From: Nitrospirota bacterium
Lineage (GTDB): Bacteria > Nitrospirota > Nitrospiria > Nitrospirales > Nitrospiraceae
Direction: 5' to 3'
NCBI GenBank assembly: GCA_040757595.1
Contig: JBFLWP010000006.1
Span: 62,001 to 126,000, forward strand
Length of the DNA stretch: 64,000 bases
The notes beneath the pieces are model-generated. The model was given only the letters and a program-made list of their open reading frames with translations. It made no database searches and was not told the origin of the DNA. Shown one piece after another: positions 8,466-21,187 of this stretch. Each line of letters opens with the position of its first letter. Position 1 is the first letter of the stretch. The position numbers were made by a program, and so were the translations under genes.

Positions 8466-8777
8466 ATGATGCATCGGATGATCTTGCGGAAATCTCTCAC
8501 AATCGGCCTCGTCTCGGTGCTCTTGCTTCTGGCCGGGACGATGTATGCCCGGGCCGTGGCGCATGAGGCTCACCATGCGCACCATCAGGCCCGCACGCAC
8601 GCGACGGCCTTGTGCGCCTGGATGTGCACGGCCGGGACCGGGCTCGACGCGCACGAGGTGATTCTCGCTCCCGCTCCCCGCCCGCTCGTCGCGCTCTCTC
8701 TGCCGTTCTCCGACGATCCCGTCAGCGTCACCGGCTCGACCTCCCTCTCCCGCGCCCCTCCGTCCCTCTTCGCGTAG
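8466..8777 (+). CDS. Small His-rich C-x-W-x-C membrane protein, copy 1
   Basis: I do not recognise this family. The 103-residue protein has one N-terminal membrane or signal segment (residues 9-28), then a His cluster (HEAHHAHHQ at 33-41, His45), then CAWMC at 50-54, and a Pro-rich tail ending SRAPPSLFA. Three more copies occur at 9481, 14038 and 17369 with the same order: membrane helix, His cluster, H-[AS]-x-x-[FL]-C-x-W-x-C-x-A, and a C-terminal R-[AG]-P-P. Spaced His and Cys residues suggest metal binding on the periplasmic side. A TlpA-type thioredoxin follows 152 bp later. The start is uncertain among ATGs at 8466, 8469 and 8478. Confidence 0.7.
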   Translation: MMHRMILRKSLTIGLVSVLLLLAGTMYARAVAHEAHHAHHQARTHATALCAWMCTAGTGLDAHEVILAPAPRPLVALSLPFSDDPVSVTGSTSLSRAPPSLFA

Positions 8778-8929: not shown

Positions 8930-9484
8930 ATGGGTAGGCAGTTGTTCCGGACGATCATCGTCATGGCGGCGCTCGCGCTCGGCATCCTCGCCCAGTCCGG
9001 GGAGGCGACGTGGGCGATGGGCTCGCGGCCGCCCGCTGTCGGTATGCCCGCCGAGGACTTCACGCTCACGGATCTCGCGGGGCGACCGCACCGGCTCAGC
9101 GAGTATCGCGGCAAGGTCGTGCTGTTGAACTTCTGGGCGACCTGGTGCAAGCCCTGCACGACCGAAATGCCCGCGATGCAGGCCGTGTACGACCGGTTGA
9201 AGGACCGGGACTTCGTGGTGCTGGCGGTCAACGAGCTCGAAGACGTACCCAAAGTGCGGGAGCACATCCGGACCTACGCCCACACCTTCCCCGTCCTGCT
9301 GGACACGGACAACCGGGTGGCGAACATGTACGGGGTCTTCGGGCTGCCGGTCAGCGTGTTCATTGACGAGTACGGCGTCGTGCAGGAGTACATCAAGGGC
9401 GGCTTGCTGACCGAGCAGAAGATCACCGAGACGGTCACCAGGCTGCAGGAGAAATCCGCGCCCAAGGCCGCCTCTTTGCGGTGA
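8930..9484 (+). CDS. TlpA/ResA-type thioredoxin, periplasmic, copy 1
   Basis: A membrane-tethered or secreted thioredoxin that most likely reduces disulfides in a partner in the periplasm. Residues 1-27 form a signal or anchor, the redox motif FWATWCKPCTTEMP has its CxxC at 73-76, and the cis-Pro loop is FGLPVSVFIDEYG. It is 184 residues long with a good AAGGAGAG ribosome site. Its stop codon overlaps the start of the second His-rich C-x-W-x-C gene (GTGA at 9481-9484), the same arrangement as the second tlpA-like gene. Family members act in cytochrome c maturation, sporulation or copper centre assembly; the context here argues for keeping the His-rich protein's cysteines reduced. Confidence 0.9.
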   Translation: MGRQLFRTIIVMAALALGILAQSGEATWAMGSRPPAVGMPAEDFTLTDLAGRPHRLSEYRGKVVLLNFWATWCKPCTTEMPAMQAVYDRLKDRDFVVLAVNELEDVPKVREHIRTYAHTFPVLLDTDNRVANMYGVFGLPVSVFIDEYGVVQEYIKGGLLTEQKITETVTRLQEKSAPKAASLR

Positions 9485-9792
9485 CGATGAACCGGAGCCT
9501 GAAACAGACTTTCGTCCTGGGCCTGGTCGCCGGGCTCCTGCTCCTGGGAGGGCTCGGGGCCGCTCAGGCGACCACCCACGCGCTGCACCATGCGCACCAC
9601 CAGGCCGCCACGCACGCGACCGCGTTCTGCTCGTGGCTCTGCGCGGCGGGGCAGGGCGCGGAGGCCCAGGCCGTCTGGCTGGCCGTGGACCGTGCGCCCT
9701 CGGCCCCGGCCGTGCTCTCCGTCGAGCAGGCGGTCTCCAGCCCGACGCTCCGCCTGACCCTCACCCGCGGCCCGCCCATCCTCTCCCGCTGA
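9481..9792 (+). CDS. Small His-rich C-x-W-x-C membrane protein, copy 2
   Basis: A 103-residue paralogue of the protein at 8466 in which the key residues align without gaps: HALHHAHHQ at 33-41, His45, and CSWLC at 50-54. It ends in TRGPPILSR. The N-terminal hydrophobic segment is residues 11-28. GTG at 9481 overlaps the thioredoxin stop by four bases, favouring coupled translation; ATG at 9487 is the alternative. Function unknown, probably metal binding at the membrane surface. Confidence 0.75.
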   Translation: MTMNRSLKQTFVLGLVAGLLLLGGLGAAQATTHALHHAHHQAATHATAFCSWLCAAGQGAEAQAVWLAVDRAPSAPAVLSVEQAVSSPTLRLTLTRGPPILSR

Positions 9793-12176: not shown

Positions 12177-13484
12177 ATGGTCAGCCGACGCGGATGGAAG
12201 TCGCTCATAGGGGCTGGCTTGGCCGCCCTCGGTGGGGCGGCCCTGGCTGTGGCCGCAGAGCCGATCCCGCCGAATGCCGAGCTCGCCTTGGGCCAGAAGG
12301 TGACCGTCGAACACCAGGCGAAATCCGTCACGGGGCCCTCGGTGGCTGTTGACGAGCGGGGCACGGTGCACCTGGCCTGGATGCAGGAGGACAGGCAGAA
12401 CGGCCAGGAGGTGCGCTCGGTCCGTTATGCCCGGATGAGCCAGCCGAGTGCGTCCTTGGGCACGGCCGTTCAAGTCAACCGGCCGGAGGAGTCCCCCTAC
12501 TGGCGCCAGGAGGCTCCGGCCCTGGCGGTGAGCGGCGACGCGGTGTTCCTCACCTGGGCCTCGACCCATCCGAAGGCCGGCCCCGACAAGCCCTTCGCCA
12601 GCGAGCTGCGCCTCAGCCGATCCACGGACGGCGGGCAGACCTTCCTGCCCTCCGTGCTCGTGAACGACGACGGCCAAGCCATCGTGCACAGCTTCGATGC
12701 GCTGCGCCTCGGGCCGGACGGCACCCTCCACGTTTCCTGGATCGACGGGCGCGAGGGGAAGAAGGAGCCGGGGACCTACGCCGCGCGATCCGGCGACCAC
12801 GGGCGGACGGTCGGCAAGAACCGGAAGGTGGACGAGAACACCTGCGTCTGCTGCCGGACCTCCCTGACGACCGCGCCGGACGGCACGGTCTATCTCGCCT
12901 GGCGGAAAATCTTCGAAGGGAACGTGCGGGAAACCGTCGTCGCCCGTTCGAACGACGGAGGACGCATCTTTTCGGAACCGGTGGTCGTCGGCCACGACCG
13001 ATGGGTCTTTCCCGGCTGTCCGCACCGGCCGGCGTCGATTGGGGTGGACCGGCAGGGCCGGCTCTACGTCGTCTGGTACACGGAGGGGGCCGACGAGACC
13101 CCTGCGATTTACCTGGCCTACTCCGACGACGGAGGCCGGACCTTTTCGGCCAAGCGGGCCCTGAACGTCTCCAGGGGAACCTTCCCCGACCATCCGCAAA
13201 TGGCGGTGGACGGCCAGGGTCGCCTCCTCGTGGTCTGGGAGGAGCAATCGCCGGTTCGGCGCGAGGTGGTGCTGAGCTACTCGCCTGACCGGGGCGCGAC
13301 TTTCAGCAAACCGGTGAGACTGAACGAGAAGAAGGGGCAGAGCCCGGTCGTGGCGGTGAATGAGCAGGGGCTGGTGGCCATGGCCTGGCTGGAGCATGCG
13401 ATGCCCGGCCACAAGACGGTGATCCAGACGGCGCAGCTCCCTTCGCAGCGGACCGCATTGAATGCCCCCATGGACTCGCAGTGA
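12177..13484 (+). CDS. Secreted BNR/sialidase-like beta-propeller with CxCC motif
   Basis: A 435-residue exported protein (signal peptide about 1-26) built from repeated Asp-box (BNR) blades such as SRSTDGGQTFLPS, ARSNDGGRIFSEP, AYSDDGGRTFSAK and SYSPDRGATFSKP, which form a six-bladed sialidase-type propeller. No sialidase catalytic set is evident. It instead carries ENTCVCCRTSL and, about 60 residues on, VFPGCPHRPASI. This CxCC plus GCPxxP pair looks like a metal or redox site rather than a glycosidase pocket. It follows tonB by 32 bp with an AAGGAGG site and its stop overlaps the next thioredoxin gene (TGATG). The role is unknown; metal transfer is an inference. Confidence 0.75.
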   Translation: MVSRRGWKSLIGAGLAALGGAALAVAAEPIPPNAELALGQKVTVEHQAKSVTGPSVAVDERGTVHLAWMQEDRQNGQEVRSVRYARMSQPSASLGTAVQVNRPEESPYWRQEAPALAVSGDAVFLTWASTHPKAGPDKPFASELRLSRSTDGGQTFLPSVLVNDDGQAIVHSFDALRLGPDGTLHVSWIDGREGKKEPGTYAARSGDHGRTVGKNRKVDENTCVCCRTSLTTAPDGTVYLAWRKIFEGNVRETVVARSNDGGRIFSEPVVVGHDRWVFPGCPHRPASIGVDRQGRLYVVWYTEGADETPAIYLAYSDDGGRTFSAKRALNVSRGTFPDHPQMAVDGQGRLLVVWEEQSPVRREVVLSYSPDRGATFSKPVRLNEKKGQSPVVAVNEQGLVAMAWLEHAMPGHKTVIQTAQLPSQRTALNAPMDSQ

Positions 13485-14041
13485 TGATCCGGTGCGTCCT
13501 TCGTCCTTTTTTACGGTTGACCCTCTGGCTCGGGCTGGCGGGATTTCTGATCGGGTCGCTCTCCGCGGCCGGACCGACCGTGGATCCGCTGGTTGCGCTC
13601 AAGATCAGCCGGGCCGGAGCAGGAGTGGAGACGCCGGCCTTTAGCCTGAATCAGCTTGACGGGTCGGTGGTCCGCTCTCAGGACCTGGCCGGCAAGGTCC
13701 TGCTGCTCAACTTCTGGGCGACCTGGTGCGGGCCGTGCAAGGAGGAGATGCCGTCGCTGGATCGGCTGCGGCGACAGTTCGATCCACGGGAGTTCGTGCT
13801 GCTCGCGGTGACGGCGGATCGGCAGCGGGACGGGATCAAGGCCTTCTTGAAGCATCTGGGGCTGGATATTCCCGTGCTGTTCGACGAAGGCCAAGAAGTC
13901 TCCGCGGCCTTCATGGTGCGGGGCCTTCCCACGACCGTGCTGATCGGGAAGGATGGAAAGACCGTCGGGCGGGCTGTGGGCCCCCGTGCCTGGGACAGTC
14001 CCGAAGCCGTCGCCCTGGTCTCCAGCCTCGTGCGCCAATGA
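13484..14041 (+). CDS. TlpA/ResA-type thioredoxin, periplasmic, copy 2
   Basis: A 185-residue paralogue of the thioredoxin at 8930. It has an N-terminal membrane segment (11-29), a thioredoxin fold with NFWATWCGPCKEEMPS (CxxC at 82-85) and a cis-Pro in RGLPTTVLIGKDG. The ATG at 13484 shares bases with the stop of the BNR gene, and its own stop overlaps the ATG of the third His-rich gene by four bases (14038-14041). This tight chaining suggests coupled translation of propeller, thioredoxin and His-rich protein. Likely a reductant for Cys residues in one of these partners. Confidence 0.9.
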   Translation: MIRCVLRPFLRLTLWLGLAGFLIGSLSAAGPTVDPLVALKISRAGAGVETPAFSLNQLDGSVVRSQDLAGKVLLLNFWATWCGPCKEEMPSLDRLRRQFDPREFVLLAVTADRQRDGIKAFLKHLGLDIPVLFDEGQEVSAAFMVRGLPTTVLIGKDGKTVGRAVGPRAWDSPEAVALVSSLVRQ

Positions 14042-14346
14042 AACGGCTGATCCCATACCTGATTCTGGGGCTGGTGGCGGTCCAGGTCATCCTGGCTGTC
14101 GCCGCGGCTGCCTGCCTTTTCGACCATGCGGCGTCCCACCATGCAGGCCATCACCACCAGTCCAAGGCCCACTCCACACTCTGTGCCTGGGCCTGTCAGG
14201 CGAACCCCGGTTCTGGCTTCGCCGAGACTGCCCTGCCGGTCCAGCCGATCCTGCTCGCGCTGTTCTTTCTGTCCGTCTCCGTTTCCACCCTGTCTGGGTT
14301 CCGCCTCTATCATCTCGCTCCCCGCGGCCCGCCCTTCCTCGACTGA
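14038..14346 (+). CDS. Small His-rich C-x-W-x-C membrane protein, copy 3
   Basis: A 102-residue member of the family at 8466. It has an N-terminal helix (6-27), a His cluster HHAGHHHQ at 34-41, CAWAC at 49-53, a second hydrophobic helix (about 68-88) and the closing APRGPPFLD. The second helix shows these proteins can span the membrane twice, with the His/Cys loop between the helices. ATG overlaps the thioredoxin stop (ATGA). Function unknown. Confidence 0.75.
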   Translation: MKRLIPYLILGLVAVQVILAVAAAACLFDHAASHHAGHHHQSKAHSTLCAWACQANPGSGFAETALPVQPILLALFFLSVSVSTLSGFRLYHLAPRGPPFLD

Positions 14347-14445: not shown

Positions 14446-16782
14446 ATGACCGCGTGCGTCGTTCGTCGCGGCCTGATTCTGGCCGTATTGTTCATGAGTT
14501 CGTGGATTTGGTGGGACGGGCCGAGCTGGGCTCAGGAGCAGACTCCTGTTCCCCAGCCCCAGGCGGAGAAGGCCCGACGGAAGGAGAAACTGGAAAAGCA
14601 ACTGAAGCAGATCCTGGAGGAGCTGGACGAGCTTCAGCATGAGGAGCAGCCGGCCGAGGGCGGGCGGGCTCCCGAAGGCCCCAGCATCATCAAGGGCCGG
14701 GTCGAGCCGGAAGAGCCGGGCGCCGCGCCGGAAATGGAACTGACGGATGTGAGCATCGTCAGCGATCGCATTCAGAAGCATCCGGAGGGTATCTCGCTCT
14801 CGACAGCCCCCCGATCCGAATATGATTCCCAGCCCACGCGACACATGCGCGAGTCCTTGGAGTCGCTGCCCGGCGTGATCGTCCGACAAGCGAACGGGCC
14901 TCGAGATTTTAGCATCTCGATTCGCGGCTCAGGGGTCAAGACCACGTTCGCGATCAGAGACCTCAAAATGTACGAAGACGGGATCATCCAAACGCAGTCC
15001 GATGGGTTGAGTCGAATGGACCTGCACGATCCGTGGTTTATGAAGAGCGTGGAGGTCACCCGAGGCGCGTCCTCTTCGCTGTACGACAACTATGCGCTGG
15101 GGGGGATGGTGCATTTTAAGACTCGGCGTGGCCGCGACATCAACGGCGCGGAGTCGTTCTTCGGCGTCGGCTCGTACGGCTTTCAGAAGTATGCCTTTGC
15201 CGCCGGTCAGGAGACCAAGAACACCGATATCGCCATGTTCGCCAGCCAGGTGGCTGAGGACGGGTACATCCAGCACAGCGGCTACACCACCCAAAGCCTC
15301 AATTTCAATTTCCGCTTCAAAATCGACGACAAGCAAAGCCTCTACTTCAAGGCCATCACGAATTGGCTCGACACGCAGGTGCCGACCCGGTTGACGCTCG
15401 CGCAGTTTGCGAGCAATCCACGGCAGGCCGGCGGGACCACGTGCACCTCCACGTCTTGCAACAATGCCTTGCTCTTGGGACAGCGGCGGCTGGACCGGAG
15501 GACGATCATCGGCGGCTTCTACGAGCGACAGCTCAATGCCAACACCGTGCTGACGGTGGAAGCCGATTACGATGTCAAGGATATCCATCAGACGTTCTCG
15601 CAAATCAACGACGCCGTGAATCCCAACTGGAAGCATTACGCCGACCTGCGGCACGACGGGCGCCTGGCGGGCATGCCGCTCAAAAGCTATGTCGGGTTTT
15701 TCGTCAACAACATGGAACAGGACTCGAACTCTTTTGCCAATTCCAACGACGGCACCGGTACGCGGGGAGTCCTGCGGCAAAACAGCCGCGGCACGATTCG
15801 GAATATCGGCGGGCGTTTTCGCGAGGAATTGGAGTTCGCGCCGAAATGGACCTTGGCGGCCGGGTTGGGGTACGAGCAATCAATCGTGAGCGTGCAGGTC
15901 ATCAGCTACTCGTCGGCGGGAGCCCTCAGTAGTCGGGCGAATGCGGACCGCACCTTTGACAATTGGGCGCCGGAAATGTCCCTGACCTGGAAGCCGGCCG
16001 AGGGCTACAGGCACTGGGTTCGAGCGTCCACAGGCTACGGGATACCGGGATTTAGCAATCTGACTACCGATCCCTTCACCGGCCTGGCCGGCACGAACTT
16101 CAATCTCAAACCGCAGAAAAACCTGAACCTGGAAATCGGCACCGACTCGAAACTCGCCAAGGATCTCTCAGTCCAACTCGTCGGATATTGGATCTTCTTC
16201 AAGGACGAAATCATCTCCCAAGTCGTGTCGTCGACGGGCGGGACGGCGTCCATCAACGCCGATGGGTCGGAATACCGAGGTATCGAACTCAGCTACGACT
16301 GGCGCCCCTTGGCCGGGTGGCGATTCTCGGGTGCCTATACGCACGTGACCGGCACGTACACGAATTTCAAGGACAGGTTTCTGGTGAACGGCGTGCCGAC
16401 GGACTTCGTGCGAGACGGGAAACTGGTCCCCAACGTGGTGCGAAACGTGCTCAACTTCAAGGAAGAGTACGATCACCCGTCTGGATGGGGGGGCTGGTTC
16501 GAGACAAGCTACTGGGACAGTTATTTCCTCAACAACGCCAATACAGTCGGCGCGCCGGCCTACTGGTTGATGAATGCCAATATTCACAAGAACTTTGAGT
16601 TCATGAACAATTCCTATGTTCGGTTCGCCAAGTTCTACTTCGAGCTGGACAACATTGCCGACAAAACCTACGTGGCCTCCGGCAACGTGGTTGCGGATAG
16701 CACGCCCGATGCCAGCAAGACGCTGTTCTTCGCCGGCTATGGGCGGGCCATCTACGCAGGCCTGACGCTGGGGTTCTTCTAA
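14446..16782 (+). CDS. TonB-dependent outer-membrane receptor (full length)
   Basis: A 778-residue receptor that would import a chelated ligand with TonB energy. After the signal peptide (cleavage near SWAQEQ) there is an unusual charged coiled-coil stretch (about 39-68, KARRKEKLEKQLKQILEELD) and then the plug domain: MRESLESLPGVIVRQANGP, ISIRGSGVKTTFAIR, VEVTRGASSSLYDNYALGG. The remainder is a 22-strand-type barrel ending in the aromatic strand RAIYAGLTLGFF. No periplasmic signalling domain is seen. AGGAGG precedes the ATG. A plug-only partial copy follows at 16794. The ligand is unknown; the His/Cys-rich neighbours suggest a metal complex. Confidence 0.9.
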   Translation: MTACVVRRGLILAVLFMSSWIWWDGPSWAQEQTPVPQPQAEKARRKEKLEKQLKQILEELDELQHEEQPAEGGRAPEGPSIIKGRVEPEEPGAAPEMELTDVSIVSDRIQKHPEGISLSTAPRSEYDSQPTRHMRESLESLPGVIVRQANGPRDFSISIRGSGVKTTFAIRDLKMYEDGIIQTQSDGLSRMDLHDPWFMKSVEVTRGASSSLYDNYALGGMVHFKTRRGRDINGAESFFGVGSYGFQKYAFAAGQETKNTDIAMFASQVAEDGYIQHSGYTTQSLNFNFRFKIDDKQSLYFKAITNWLDTQVPTRLTLAQFASNPRQAGGTTCTSTSCNNALLLGQRRLDRRTIIGGFYERQLNANTVLTVEADYDVKDIHQTFSQINDAVNPNWKHYADLRHDGRLAGMPLKSYVGFFVNNMEQDSNSFANSNDGTGTRGVLRQNSRGTIRNIGGRFREELEFAPKWTLAAGLGYEQSIVSVQVISYSSAGALSSRANADRTFDNWAPEMSLTWKPAEGYRHWVRASTGYGIPGFSNLTTDPFTGLAGTNFNLKPQKNLNLEIGTDSKLAKDLSVQLVGYWIFFKDEIISQVVSSTGGTASINADGSEYRGIELSYDWRPLAGWRFSGAYTHVTGTYTNFKDRFLVNGVPTDFVRDGKLVPNVVRNVLNFKEEYDHPSGWGGWFETSYWDSYFLNNANTVGAPAYWLMNANIHKNFEFMNNSYVRFAKFYFELDNIADKTYVASGNVVADSTPDASKTLFFAGYGRAIYAGLTLGFF

Positions 16783-16793
16783 CGGAGGAAGCC

Positions 16794-17219
16794 GTGAGCA
16801 TACTGAATCGGGCCATGATGGTCTCAACAGGCTGTGCACTCGTCTGTATCAGCGGCTGCCTGCTCGCTGGCCAGGGATGGGCGCAGGAAGCTTCTGCCCG
16901 GGATCGCGCAGCGGCTCGCACCGAGCGGATCAAAGCACTCCAGGCGCAGGCGGCCCGCATCCAGAAAGAGTTGGAGGCGATGAGGCGGGTGGAAGTCAAA
17001 GAGAAGCCGGCGGCTGCCAGGCAAGGGCCGCCGACCGCGAAGCCGCTCGATGGCGTCACGCGATCGGCGGCTGCACGGGAGGAGTTCACCGAGCAGCCGA
17101 CCAGGCACATGCGGGAGTCGCTGGAGTCCCTGCCGGGCACGACGGTTCGGCAAGGCGATGGACCTCGCGACTTCAACATCTCGATCCGCGGGTCCGGCGC
17201 CAATGCCGGTTCGAGGTAG
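16794..17219 (+). CDS. Truncated TonB-receptor paralogue (signal, coiled coil and start of plug only)
   Basis: This 141-residue reading frame repeats the layout of the upstream receptor's N terminus: signal peptide (about 1-30), charged helix (42-66, TERIKALQAQAARIQKELEA) and the plug start QPTRHMRESLESLPGTTVRQ (101-120), then DFNISIRGSGANAGSR and a stop. The barrel is absent; downstream sequence in no frame resumes it. It keeps a good GGAGGAA ribosome site, 11 bp behind the receptor stop. It may be a decayed duplicate or a small periplasmic plug-like protein in its own right. Conservation of the 35-residue plug block argues for recent duplication or retained function. Confidence 0.6.
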   Translation: MSILNRAMMVSTGCALVCISGCLLAGQGWAQEASARDRAAARTERIKALQAQAARIQKELEAMRRVEVKEKPAAARQGPPTAKPLDGVTRSAAAREEFTEQPTRHMRESLESLPGTTVRQGDGPRDFNISIRGSGANAGSR

Positions 17220-17368: not shown

Positions 17369-17677
17369 GTGAAGCGAGTGCTGACGCCGATTGCCGGAGT
17401 TCTGGTCGCCGTCTATCTCGTGCTGGCGGTCCAGGCGGCGGTTTGCCTTTTTGCCGACACGGCCCCTCAGGGTGAAGGCCACCACCATCATTCCGACAAG
17501 GCCGCGCACTCGGCCCTTTGCTTGTGGGCCTGCCAGGCCCATGACGGGCCGAGTCACGTTTCGGCATCTCCAGCCCTTCTCCTCGTCTTCCTGAGCTTGG
17601 GGTTGGTCCGCTTTGTTGCAGCCCTTGCGTCGAGTCATTTTCTTCACCAACCCTGCGCCCGCGCTCCTCCCCGCTGA
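17369..17677 (+). CDS. Small His-rich C-x-W-x-C membrane protein, copy 4
   Basis: A 102-residue paralogue of the proteins at 8466, 9481 and 14038. It has an N-terminal helix (6-28), GHHHH at 37-41, His47, CLWAC at 51-55, a second hydrophobic segment (about 67-85) and a final ARAPPR. GTG 17369 is preceded by CGGAGG at eight bases. Here it follows the truncated receptor instead of a thioredoxin. The N terminus (MKR[LV][LI].P) is closest to copy 3, suggesting the receptor-plus-His-rich unit was duplicated together. Confidence 0.7.
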   Translation: MKRVLTPIAGVLVAVYLVLAVQAAVCLFADTAPQGEGHHHHSDKAAHSALCLWACQAHDGPSHVSASPALLLVFLSLGLVRFVAALASSHFLHQPCARAPPR

Positions 17678-18019: not shown

Positions 18020-18385
18020 ATGACGAGACGAATCGCGTTCTGGCTGGTCTTCGCGATCCTCTGTGGCGGGACTTCTGCGTGGGCTGAGGATGAGCCTGCG
18101 CGACTTCTCCAGGTCGGCGCGGAGGAGACGGAGCAGGCGATTGTACAGATCGGGGGGCGGATGTGCGAATACCGCCGGAGCGAAGTGGAAGATGCCCTTC
18201 GCCGGTTCGACGCAGTGCGGCAGGTGCAATTTCTGAACAATCACGGAACGGTGTTGGTCCGGTTTCTGGGCAGCGGGGTGCGTCCTGAACGGCTGGCGCA
18301 AGCCGTCGAGCGGGCCTTGATCATGGGCTGGGGCTGCAAGGCCTGGGTGGATGAGGGGGCCGGACTCGCTGCCGGGGCCGGCTAA
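18020..18385 (+). CDS. Exported HMA-like single-Cys protein A
   Basis: A 121-residue secreted protein (signal peptide 1-22) whose mature part matches the length and alternation of a MerP/CopZ-type beta-alpha-beta-beta-alpha-beta metal-binding fold. In place of the CxxC loop it has GGRMCEYR with one Cys at 49, and a second Cys at 106 in GWGCKAWV after the last helix. The next gene encodes a paralogue with Cys at the same residue 49. The two could bind a metal using one Cys from each end of the domain. AAAGGAG precedes the ATG. Assignment to the HMA superfamily is by pattern only. Confidence 0.6.
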   Translation: MTRRIAFWLVFAILCGGTSAWAEDEPARLLQVGAEETEQAIVQIGGRMCEYRRSEVEDALRRFDAVRQVQFLNNHGTVLVRFLGSGVRPERLAQAVERALIMGWGCKAWVDEGAGLAAGAG

Positions 18386-18397
18386 GGAGGTGGCGGG

Positions 18398-18745
18398 ATG
18401 CGCGAGAGGATCAATTACGAGTTGATTTCAGTTGCGGCTGGATTGGCGTTGCTGGGGCAGTGCGGAGTAGGGCTGACTGCGGAGCCGAGGCCCGTCATGG
18501 CCGAGGGGAAGACGATCGTGCTTATGATGGGCGGCAGGTTCTGCGAATTCTATGCGAAAGAGCTGACCGAGGCGCTGAAGGCTGTGAAAGGTGTAAAGGC
18601 GGCGGACCTAAAGAGCGTGAAAGGTCATGCGAGGGTGACTCACGACGGCAGCGTGAAACCGGAGGCGCTGGTCGCGGCGGTGAAGGGGGTCAAGGGAACC
18701 AAAATGGGGATGGAATGGCACTGTACGGCGGAGGTGATGAAGTGA
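18398..18745 (+). CDS. Exported HMA-like single-Cys protein B
   Basis: A 115-residue paralogue of the preceding protein, 12 bp downstream with a TAAGGAGG site. After a signal peptide (about 1-28) it reads TIVLMMGGRFCEFYAKELTE (Cys49), EALKAVKGVKAADLKSVKGH, HDGSVKPEALVAAVKGVKGT and ends EWHCTAEVMK (Cys109). Helix 1, the V-x-x-V-K strand and the PEALVAAVK helix are characteristic of HMA domains such as MerP, but the CxxC motif is reduced to GGR[MF]CE[YF]. Probably a periplasmic metal carrier. Confidence 0.65.
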   Translation: MRERINYELISVAAGLALLGQCGVGLTAEPRPVMAEGKTIVLMMGGRFCEFYAKELTEALKAVKGVKAADLKSVKGHARVTHDGSVKPEALVAAVKGVKGTKMGMEWHCTAEVMK

Positions 18746-18759
18746 GGAGGGGCAGGCGC

Positions 18760-19338
18760 ATGGTGGTCATCCTGATCTTGCTGGCGACGGGACTCACCGT
18801 CGGAGTGAGCCTGGTGTCGTTCTCCCTGGATCTCAAAGATTCGCCCACCATGGCGAAACGGGCGGTGCTACCCAGGGATGGCGAGCTGGCGCTCCCGGCC
18901 GGCTATACAACTTGGCCGAAATTCCTCTCCGAAGTCCAGCGGCCGGACGCGAAGCAGGTGCGCGAGATCTACATCAATCCGGTTGGCGCGAGAACCGAAG
19001 CGGGCCGGCCATTTCCGGACGGCACGATCATGGTCATGGAACTGTACAGGGCCAAGGCGGAAGGGGAGGCGCTGGCGAAGGGGCCTGACGGGAAGCTGGC
19101 GAAGGGCGACTTGGTCAAGGTCTTCGTCATGGGCAAAGGCGAAGGCTGGGGGCAGGACGTGCCGGCGAACCTCAGGAACGGGACCTGGCTCTATGCGGCC
19201 TACGGACCGGACGCCAAGCCCCTGCGGGAGGATTTCACCAAGTGCCGGGCCTGCCATGCGCCACTGGTCCAGAAGGACTTCGTGCACCGGTACGACCAGT
19301 ATTTTGAAGCCCGCACAAAGCGAATGCACGAACGGTAG
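18760..19338 (+). CDS. Cytochrome P460 family protein
   Basis: A c-type cytochrome with a P460-like haem pocket; family members oxidise hydroxylamine or bind NO in the periplasm. The 192-residue chain has an N-terminal signal or anchor (3-22), the family signature YINPVGARTEAGRPFPDGTI (71-90) with MELYRAKAEG, and one haem-binding CRACH at 162-166. The cross-linking Lys of P460 cannot be pinned down without an alignment. GGAGG lies nine bases before ATG 18760, and the gene starts just after the HMA-like pair, so it is probably co-transcribed. Presence of P460 is consistent with a nitrifier-type lifestyle. Confidence 0.85.
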   Translation: MVVILILLATGLTVGVSLVSFSLDLKDSPTMAKRAVLPRDGELALPAGYTTWPKFLSEVQRPDAKQVREIYINPVGARTEAGRPFPDGTIMVMELYRAKAEGEALAKGPDGKLAKGDLVKVFVMGKGEGWGQDVPANLRNGTWLYAAYGPDAKPLREDFTKCRACHAPLVQKDFVHRYDQYFEARTKRMHER

Positions 19339-19459: not shown

Positions 19460-19654
19460 ATGGACAAACCGTTGCTGCGAGTCGGGGAAGCGGCGGAACT
19501 GCTGAACGTGAGTCGCTGGACCATCTATCGCTGGGTCGAGGAGGGACGGCTGGATGCGACCAGGATCGGGAGCAACAGCCTGCGCGTCTTCCGCGAGTCC
19601 GTCACCACGTTGATCGAGGAGAACCGAACGGACGGGGTCCCGTGCAAGTCTTGA
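19460..19654 (+). CDS. Excisionase/MerR-like helix-turn-helix protein
   Basis: A 64-residue DNA-binding protein of the HTH_17 type: LRVGEAAELLNVSRWTIYRW, VEEGRLDATRIGSNSLRVFR, closely matching the winged helix of excisionase-family proteins. A GGAGGGA site precedes the ATG. Such proteins either regulate nearby genes or assist a recombinase; no integrase is in the window, so a local regulatory role is more likely. It sits between the P460 and SmbP-like genes. Confidence 0.8.
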   Translation: MDKPLLRVGEAAELLNVSRWTIYRWVEEGRLDATRIGSNSLRVFRESVTTLIEENRTDGVPCKS

Positions 19655-19969: not shown

Positions 19970-20269
19970 ATGAAAAGGGCGGTCGTCGTTGGGTTTGTCG
20001 TATGGTTTGCGGTGATGACGGTCGGAGTTACTTCTGTTCCGGCCGAAAAGGGGTCCGATCACGTCAGGGAAGGCGTCAAACATGTCAAGGAAGGGATTGC
20101 CCATGTCAAGGAAGCCCTCGCGCATCTGGAGGAGTCGGTGAAGGCCGCGGGAGATACGCACACCAAAGAAGCGTTACAGCATGCCAAGGAGGCGATCAAG
20201 CATGCGGAGGAGTCGGTCGAACATGCCCAGCATGCCCCAGCCATGGCGCCGTCGGCCAAGAAGAAATAG
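19970..20269 (+). CDS. SmbP-like His-repeat metal-binding protein
   Basis: A 99-residue exported protein whose mature part is a helical seven-residue repeat with His at 31, 38, 45, 52 and again at 64, 71, 78, 85, read as HVKEGIAHVKEALAHLEES and HAKEAIKHAEESVEHAQHA. This closely resembles SmbP of Nitrosomonas europaea, a periplasmic four-helix bundle that binds many copper ions. The signal peptide is residues 1-25. GGAGGG precedes the ATG. Its presence supports copper or other divalent metal buffering as the theme of the island. Confidence 0.8.
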   Translation: MKRAVVVGFVVWFAVMTVGVTSVPAEKGSDHVREGVKHVKEGIAHVKEALAHLEESVKAAGDTHTKEALQHAKEAIKHAEESVEHAQHAPAMAPSAKKK

Positions 20270-20339: not shown

Positions 20340-20681
20340 ATGCGCAACAGGCTATGGCTCCGGGTTGCAGCCGTGGCGTGGCTGCTGGTCGGGCCTTTTC
20401 CTGCCGGCGCCCAGGATCAGACCCTGGAACGGCTGCTCCGCGCACAGGCTTTCAACCAGGAGTTCGAGGGGTATGACCATTACCAGGTGACGATCGAGGC
20501 CGACCGGTCCCAGCAGGACGGCTCACGGGAAGTAACGGCCGTGGCCAGCGGGCGGTTTCTCGAGCATGTGAAGCGACTGAAAGTGTTGTTCCTCATCGTC
20601 GGCGATCAGGTCGTCGGCGGTCAGATTCTGGAACAGCAGGGACTGCCGCCGTGTGCAGTCTCTTCGCAGGAAGCATTGTAG
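20340..20681 (+). CDS. Secreted protein of unknown function
   Basis: A 113-residue exported protein (signal peptide 1-25, cleavage near PAGAQDQ). The mature part reads LERLLRAQAFNQEFEGYDHY, VTIEADRSQQDGSREVTAVA and a hydrophobic strand KVLFLIVGDQVVGGQILEQQ. I do not recognise the family. GGGAGGAG lies close before ATG 20340. It sits between the SmbP-like and cupredoxin-like genes, both exported. Confidence 0.55.
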   Translation: MRNRLWLRVAAVAWLLVGPFPAGAQDQTLERLLRAQAFNQEFEGYDHYQVTIEADRSQQDGSREVTAVASGRFLEHVKRLKVLFLIVGDQVVGGQILEQQGLPPCAVSSQEAL

Positions 20682-20704
20682 GCATTCATTCACAGGAGGT
20701 AGCT

Positions 20705-21187
20705 ATGTTGAGACACGTGTGTTGCAGTGTGGTTGCCATGTTGCTGGTCTGGGGAGTAAGCCCGGTGCTGGCCCACCAAGCCGGCGGGGTCGAAATCGGC
20801 GACTACGAAACCGGGTCGGTGATCGGGCAGGCATTCAAGGAATTGCCGATTGACGTGGAGTTCATCGCGCTGGATAGCGTGGGCGGAAAAAAGGTCTGGT
20901 ATCCGCCGACCGCCATCGTCAACGTGCGGGATCGGGGCAGCAACCCGGTCGTGCTGAAGGTGACCAACAAGACGAGCGCGGACCAGGGCTTCTCGCTCTC
21001 GGCGGGCGACAGCTACGCGCCGCCCACCTCGCTGAACGTGAGGTTGGTGCTGAAGCCGGGAGAGATCAAGTACATCGGCATCCCCACCAGCGACCTGACT
21101 TACGTCACGACGGGTGGGGTCCTCGTTTATAAATCGCACGTGCCCGGCGCGGACATCCTGGGCGGGCAGTTGATGGTCATCAAGTAA
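20705..21187 (+). CDS. Cupredoxin-like secreted protein without the Cys ligand
   Basis: A 160-residue exported protein (signal peptide 1-23). The C-terminal 90 residues look like a cupredoxin: NPVVLKVTNKTSADQGFSLS, VRLVLKPGEIKYIGIPTSDL and a final LVYKSHVPGADILGGQLMVI. In true cupredoxins this last stretch is Y-x-C-x-x-H-x-x-M or similar; here the Cys is Lys/Ser, and only one His remains, so type 1 copper is unlikely. It may bind copper differently or be a structural protein. AGGAGG precedes the ATG and a terminator follows at 21215. Confidence 0.6.
   Translation: MLRHVCCSVVAMLLVWGVSPVLAHQAGGVEIGDYETGSVIGQAFKELPIDVEFIALDSVGGKKVWYPPTAIVNVRDRGSNPVVLKVTNKTSADQGFSLSAGDSYAPPTSLNVRLVLKPGEIKYIGIPTSDLTYVTTGGVLVYKSHVPGADILGGQLMVIK

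Follow-up and report, generated by a model that had tools for sequence, protein, structure and literature searches.

HMA-fold metal carriers are recognized by CxxC, a metal-binding motif in the beta1-alpha1 loop that is their accepted signature, and domains without it are often dismissed as non-binding. Synechocystis Atx1 and similar HMA carriers keep CxxC and gain a further metal contact, in that a side chain of the alpha2-beta4 loop (loop-5) approaches the metal. The strands of the Atox1 sheet are ordered beta4-beta1-beta3-beta2, and the protein holds platinum with Cys12 and Cys15 between the beta1-alpha1 and alpha2-beta4 loops (PMC3907799).

Copper also acts through upstream ORFs (uORFs). 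CruR (DUF2946) of Bordetella pertussis and CutF of Rhodobacter capsulatus are small exported ORFs at operon heads, and both respond to copper. CruR has a fixed spacing of 45 residues between its Cys pair and RAPP (PMC9426467), and CutF carries a comparable motif (PMC9973294). Both head operons with TonB receptors, AhpC/TSA proteins and copper proteins; in response to copper, CruR switches its operon off and CutF switches its target on (PMC9426467, PMC9973294). The main text of neither study mentions Nitrospirota.

Neither the HMA fold nor CruR/CutF regulation is new in itself. Here we analyze a window of 64,000 nucleotides from contig 6 of a 3.37-Mb Nitrospiraceae genome, in which two exported HMA-fold proteins without CxxC, hereafter A and B, lie between a CruR/CutF-like uORF and a cytochrome P460-family gene. 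Our literature search found no paper on an HMA variant with a relocated cysteine, nor was the consistency of this branch across Nitrospirota or the uORF-HMA-P460 linkage found there.

The locus and its gene cassette

The features of the window that bear on A and B are as follows.

8478-8777, + strand: CruR/CutF-like small ORF heading an AhpC/TSA protein gene; start uncertain
9481-9792, + strand: CruR/CutF-like small ORF heading an outer-membrane protein gene
13481-14041, + strand: TlpA/AhpC-TSA-type thioredoxin-fold protein, conserved in the cassette (Pfam, synteny)
14038-14346, + strand: second CruR/CutF-like uORF, with HHHQS, then CAWAC, 42 residues and RGPP; directly before the TonB receptor
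14446-16782, + strand: TonB-dependent outer-membrane receptor (Pfam Plug and TonB_dep_Rec, synteny)
16794-17219, + strand: short ORF of 141 aa, orphan TonB plug (Pfam Plug, E=2.2e-6; homologs in loci L035, L053 and L063)
17369-17677, + strand: CruR/CutF-like uORF before A-B-P460, with signal/TM segment, HHHH, CLWAC, 42 residues and RAPP
18020-18385, + strand: protein A, exported, HMA fold, 121 aa, C49 and C106 (ORF, alignment, AF2 model, Foldseek)
18398-18745, + strand: protein B, exported, HMA fold, 115 aa, C49 and C109 (ORF, Pfam HMA, AF2 model, Foldseek)
18760-19338, + strand: cytochrome P460-family protein with a CRACH (CxxCH) haem motif (PF16694, E=1.2e-25; synteny)
19460-19654, + strand: small excisionase/MerR-type HTH protein, conserved near A/B (TIGR01764, E=8e-14; synteny)
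19970-20269, + strand: SMBP-like small His-rich putative metal-binding protein (Pfam SMBP, E=5.4e-5, below cut-off; synteny)
20651-21187, + strand: exported protein with a putative cupredoxin-like character, conserved in the cassette (no Pfam match; synteny)

Nitrospiraceae share the cassette in variable form. Its order is TlpA-like protein, small His/Cys ORF, TonB receptor, small His/Cys ORF, A (B) and P460, then HTH protein, SMBP-like protein, unnamed exported protein and cupredoxin-like protein, and finally Slp, DsbA and HtrA. The link of this cassette to copper is in part presumptive. Shine-Dalgarno-like sequences (AAGGAG/GGAGG) precede both A and B, 12 bases separate the two genes, and the P460 gene starts 14 bases past B; spacing and strand suggest that the three form one putative operon.

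Several neighbors have peculiarities of their own. The plug-like ORF at 16794-17219 ends right after the conserved plug motif. Because the same truncation point recurs in loci L034/L035 and homologs exist in L053 and L063, this ORF may be functional rather than a fragment. A P460 homolog in L034 (8379-8894) has SRACH in place of CRACH, and has thereby lost the first haem-attaching Cys of CxxCH. Finally, two ORFs at 20340-20681 and 20651-21187 (both + strand) encode exported proteins without a Pfam family above cut-off, and they adjoin in many relatives.

Two HMA-fold proteins with a relocated cysteine

The original prediction, made from the DNA alone, was that 18020-18745 encodes a pair of exported HMA-like proteins whose CxxC is reduced to GGR[MF]CE[YF]. 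Both ORFs are present, and direct reading finds a Sec signal peptide without a lipobox in each. The loop reads GGRMCEY in A and GGRFCEF in B. Alignment places C49 of both proteins at the first-Cys position of the CxxC loop, confirms a second cysteine at C106 (A) or C109 (B), beyond which the mature protein has no other, and agrees that only the first Cys of CxxC is left in A, B and their relatives, none of which carries the full motif in its beta1-alpha1 loop.

A and B are paralogs, with ~32–33% identity over the domain. Protein B passes the Pfam HMA model (PF00403; 29.8 bits against a cut-off of 24.8), while protein A, its paralog, scores below the cut-off (15.2 bits, E=0.029) despite matching HMA structures. 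Neither reaches the scores of the MerP and CopZ equivalogs with which they were compared (NCBIfam TIGR02052, NF033795 and NF047957): B scores 18.7 against 92.55 bits for MerP and 28.7 against 85 for CopZ_AFE_1862, and A scores 19.7 against 91 for CopZ_Bs.

Structure prediction of each protein gave an HMA fold, as originally proposed, rather than the non-HMA fold that would have spoken against the proposal. AlphaFold2 models, each built on a four-sequence alignment, have the order beta-alpha-beta-beta-alpha-beta in both proteins, with a mean pLDDT of 71 and a confident core for A, and a mean of 67 and moderate confidence for B. HMA domains, including MerP, CopZ, PacS and ATP7B, top the Foldseek PDB lists of both proteins (best TM-score by target 0.81 for each), and the nearest solved structures are nearly all Cu(I) domains. 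Both models place C49 in the beta1-alpha1 loop. The second cysteine follows the last helix, as had been noticed: in A, C106 immediately precedes beta4 (107-111), and in B, C109 immediately precedes the strand at 110-113.

HMA topology suggests how the two cysteines could meet. Since beta4 lies beside beta1, the beta1-alpha1 loop with C49 and the start of beta4 with C106/C109 share one edge, and the sheet order and platinum position of Atox1 would put the second cysteine on the metal edge. Proximity of C49 and C106/C109 is therefore expected from the topology, and the natural reading is that they form one relocated pair inside each protein. A non-standard metal site in A and B is plausible.

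A and B thus share their fold with the HMA domains of MerP, CopZ and P1B-ATPases (PF00403), as well as the GxxC loop with its first Cys in register, and like MerP they are periplasmic. Unlike these domains, they have the second Cys of CxxC replaced, a longer alpha2-beta4 loop and an additional conserved Cys where beta4 starts, which is found in 0 of 22 sampled CxxC domains. They also differ from Synechocystis Atx1, because here the loop-5/beta4 Cys goes with loss of the second CxxC Cys.

Conservation of the two cysteines across Nitrospirota

We aligned 107 domains sampled from Nitrospirota, 85 without CxxC and 22 with it, and followed two columns: C1, the position of C49, and C2, the position of C106/C109. 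The domains fall into three groups: 82 have C1 and C2 without CxxC, 22 have CxxC without C2 (all 22 of the CxxC domains), and 3 have C2 alone, having lost C1. CxxC and C2 never occur together (0/107). Among the 85 relatives without CxxC, C2 is present in all 85 and C1 in 82, which argues that the paired-cysteine pattern is more than chance.

The surroundings of both positions are conserved as well. W or Y directly precedes C2 in 66 of 85 relatives and aligns with the Y of a 'GY' common in CxxC domains, where the C2 column holds V, A or L. C2 lies past the lengthened alpha2-beta4 loop, at which the profile alignment to CxxC domains ends. At the other site, variant domains retain the G before C1, and the old second-Cys position (C1+3) is Tyr in most relatives and His in most A-type relatives.

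When the trait columns are left out of tree building, the CxxC rows fall on one side of a single branch in 88% of bootstrap trees. The tree is compatible with one cysteine switch followed by retention over several families and classes, and on this alignment the dichotomy is best read as one evolutionary event, not many. We considered repeated compensatory cysteine changes and rejected them: the tree needs one change, and the Fisher value for the counts above is based on relatives, not on events. The case for function would then rest on the long conservation of two cysteines rather than on repeated co-change.

The three variants that keep C2 without C1 are L138 (5724-6362), L139 (5879-6427) and the first copy in L116 (450-794). 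They count against a strict requirement for the pair, which is therefore not absolute. L138 and L139 come from another family of the same class, and both bear a uORF directly upstream of the variant gene.

CruR/CutF-like uORFs with a fixed motif spacing

The window holds four uORFs with CxxxC, 41 or 42 residues and a terminal R[AG]PP, and each stands before its own gene for an exported or membrane protein. Their layout is an N-terminal hydrophobic segment, read from sequence, followed by a His-rich stretch, CxxxC and the C-terminal R[AG]PP. The uORF before A (17369-17677) has a GTG start with GGAGG upstream and carries the whole CruR/CutF-like motif set, namely a small exported ORF in which CxxxC and RAPP are a fixed distance apart.

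The spacing is nearly invariant. A search of the window and the related loci, 8466 frames of 60 aa or longer, allowed any spacing from 25 to 60 residues and gave 64 matches: 53 at 42 residues, 11 at 41 and none at any other length. Pfam DUF2946 does not match 17375-17677, and on 14101-14346, the C-terminal part of 14038-14346, it scores 16.0 against a cut-off of 23.7 bits (E=0.021). Because the cut-off is not reached, we term these ORFs CruR/CutF-like rather than members of the family.

The likeness to CruR and CutF lies in the small exported ORF at the head of a putative operon, in CxxC/CxxxC with near-constant spacing to a C-terminal RAPP or proline-rich motif, and in the TonB receptor and AhpC/TSA genes downstream. 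Unlike CruR and CutF, the present uORFs have a His-rich stretch before CxxxC and head HMA-P460 genes, and their spacing is 41/42 residues rather than the 45 of CruR. The motif pair with fixed spacing, as in CruR and CutF, predicts that A-B-P460 is under copper control.

The uORF is a recurrent companion of the variant domains. Of the 85, 34 have one no more than 1.2 kb upstream, most A loci among them, and in most cassette loci the uORF immediately precedes A or the TonB receptor. A long spacer separates it from A (RNA folding z=-2.6, to which we give little weight). Many B-type singletons have neither a uORF nor the cassette nearby.

Proposed function and alternative explanations

We propose, with a probability of roughly 0.55, that A and B carry Cu(I) in the periplasm on an HMA fold whose cysteine pair has been relocated, and that a uORF puts them under copper control. 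Under this proposal, a Nitrospirota branch of HMA carriers would have lost the second Cys of CxxC and fixed a new one at the start of beta4, past the lengthened alpha2-beta4 loop. Within a single polypeptide, the thiolates of C49 and C106/C109 would together hold a single soft metal ion, Cu(I) being the likeliest, and the pair would differ from CxxC in its spacing and its approach to the metal. A and B could then pass copper between the TonB-dependent outer-membrane receptor and periplasmic users. The uORF before A would tune A-B-P460 output to copper by a nascent-chain mechanism like that of CruR or CutF, with copper acting through it on translation or transcription, in either direction.

The proposal is supported by the fold (by model), the cysteine conservation, the operon synteny and the uORF motif with its fixed spacing; metal binding, the identity of the metal, intramolecular pairing, the direction of regulation and the delivery targets are what we infer. 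The full conjunction, a distinct Nitrospirota HMA branch with a Cu(I) site of loop-1 Cys and beta4 Cys under a copper-sensing nascent-chain uORF, is more tentative and stands somewhat below even odds.

The pairing of A and B had earlier suggested that one metal ion might be shared in a heterodimer, with one Cys from each chain. HMA carriers can indeed bridge copper between two chains, and wherever the two are neighbors, in nine loci, A comes immediately before B (the window, L035, L040, L041, L043, L102, L103, L106 and L107, with L102 and L103 coming from one genome). Yet A also stands in this cassette with no B next to it (L053, L054, L056, L058, L063, L064 and L120-L127), and B without A in many loci, some outside the cassette; in nearly every case the lone protein retains both of its own cysteines. 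Metal sharing between A and B is therefore not needed, and since beta4 adjoins beta1, a chain needs no partner to bring its two cysteines together. We accordingly rejected the heterodimer as the main reading of two proteins with a single-Cys loop, and hold it improbable.

The main rival leaves the pair within one chain and removes the metal. C49 and C106/C109 could form a permanent structural disulfide in the oxidizing periplasm, tying loop 1 to beta4 in a binding or scaffold module that carries no metal. Each mature protein, with its signal peptide removed, has exactly two cysteines, their positions lie on adjacent strands by topology, and the cassette includes DsbA- and TlpA-type thiol-redox proteins. 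Plant HMA-fold modules are used in protein binding, so the fold can take non-carrier roles, and such modules are among the Foldseek matches of A and B. Against this, C1 sits exactly at the CxxC metal position with its preceding G kept, copper-type uORFs and metal genes surround A and B, and the three relatives with C2 but no C1 are odd for a disulfide; on balance we judge it unlikely, though well ahead of any other alternative. A different ligand is a more distant prospect: Hg(II) or Zn(II) might be bound, or else Cu(II) with the help of the residue after C1, acidic in 67 of 85 relatives, and of the Tyr (49) or His (21) found at C1+3 in 70 of 85, which would make A and B resistance or sequestration proteins rather than carriers. 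Sub-threshold MerP matches point the same way, but A of the window has Arg rather than His at C1+3, the part of the window examined for mer genes (4.2-24 kb) contains none, and the uORF type responds to copper in the two cases studied (PMC9426467, PMC9973294).

If A and B are indeed Cu(I) carriers with a relocated pair, the conserved move of a Cys to the facing strand would be a natural experiment on how geometry governs Cu(I) affinity and transfer, and small soluble proteins make that question testable. Nitrospirota include the main nitrite oxidizers and the comammox bacteria. The uORF link would carry CruR/CutF-type copper sensing into this phylum, and the uORFs would flag probably copper-regulated genes in its hard-to-culture members.

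Distribution of A and B relatives

A single-sequence scan of genome contigs returned only one close relative, from a Nitrospira sp. MAG (VGXG01000001). Profile searches found relatives of A and B across much of the phylum Nitrospirota, many of the weaker matches being ordinary CxxC domains, judging by the aligned sample. Among 61 genomes near the source genome, 27 have A/B relatives; no plasmid homologs of B were found. We rejected a tie to ammonia oxidation, because AmoA-family matches (PF02461) are absent from the source genome and occur in only 3 of the 61 genomes.

A third branch of the variant domains, clade C, occurs in many Nitrospiraceae. Its members have C1, C2 and an additional conserved C-terminal MKSCITA/MQSCIS, for example at L055 (7403-8428), L062 (7227-7745) and L067 (7078-7590).
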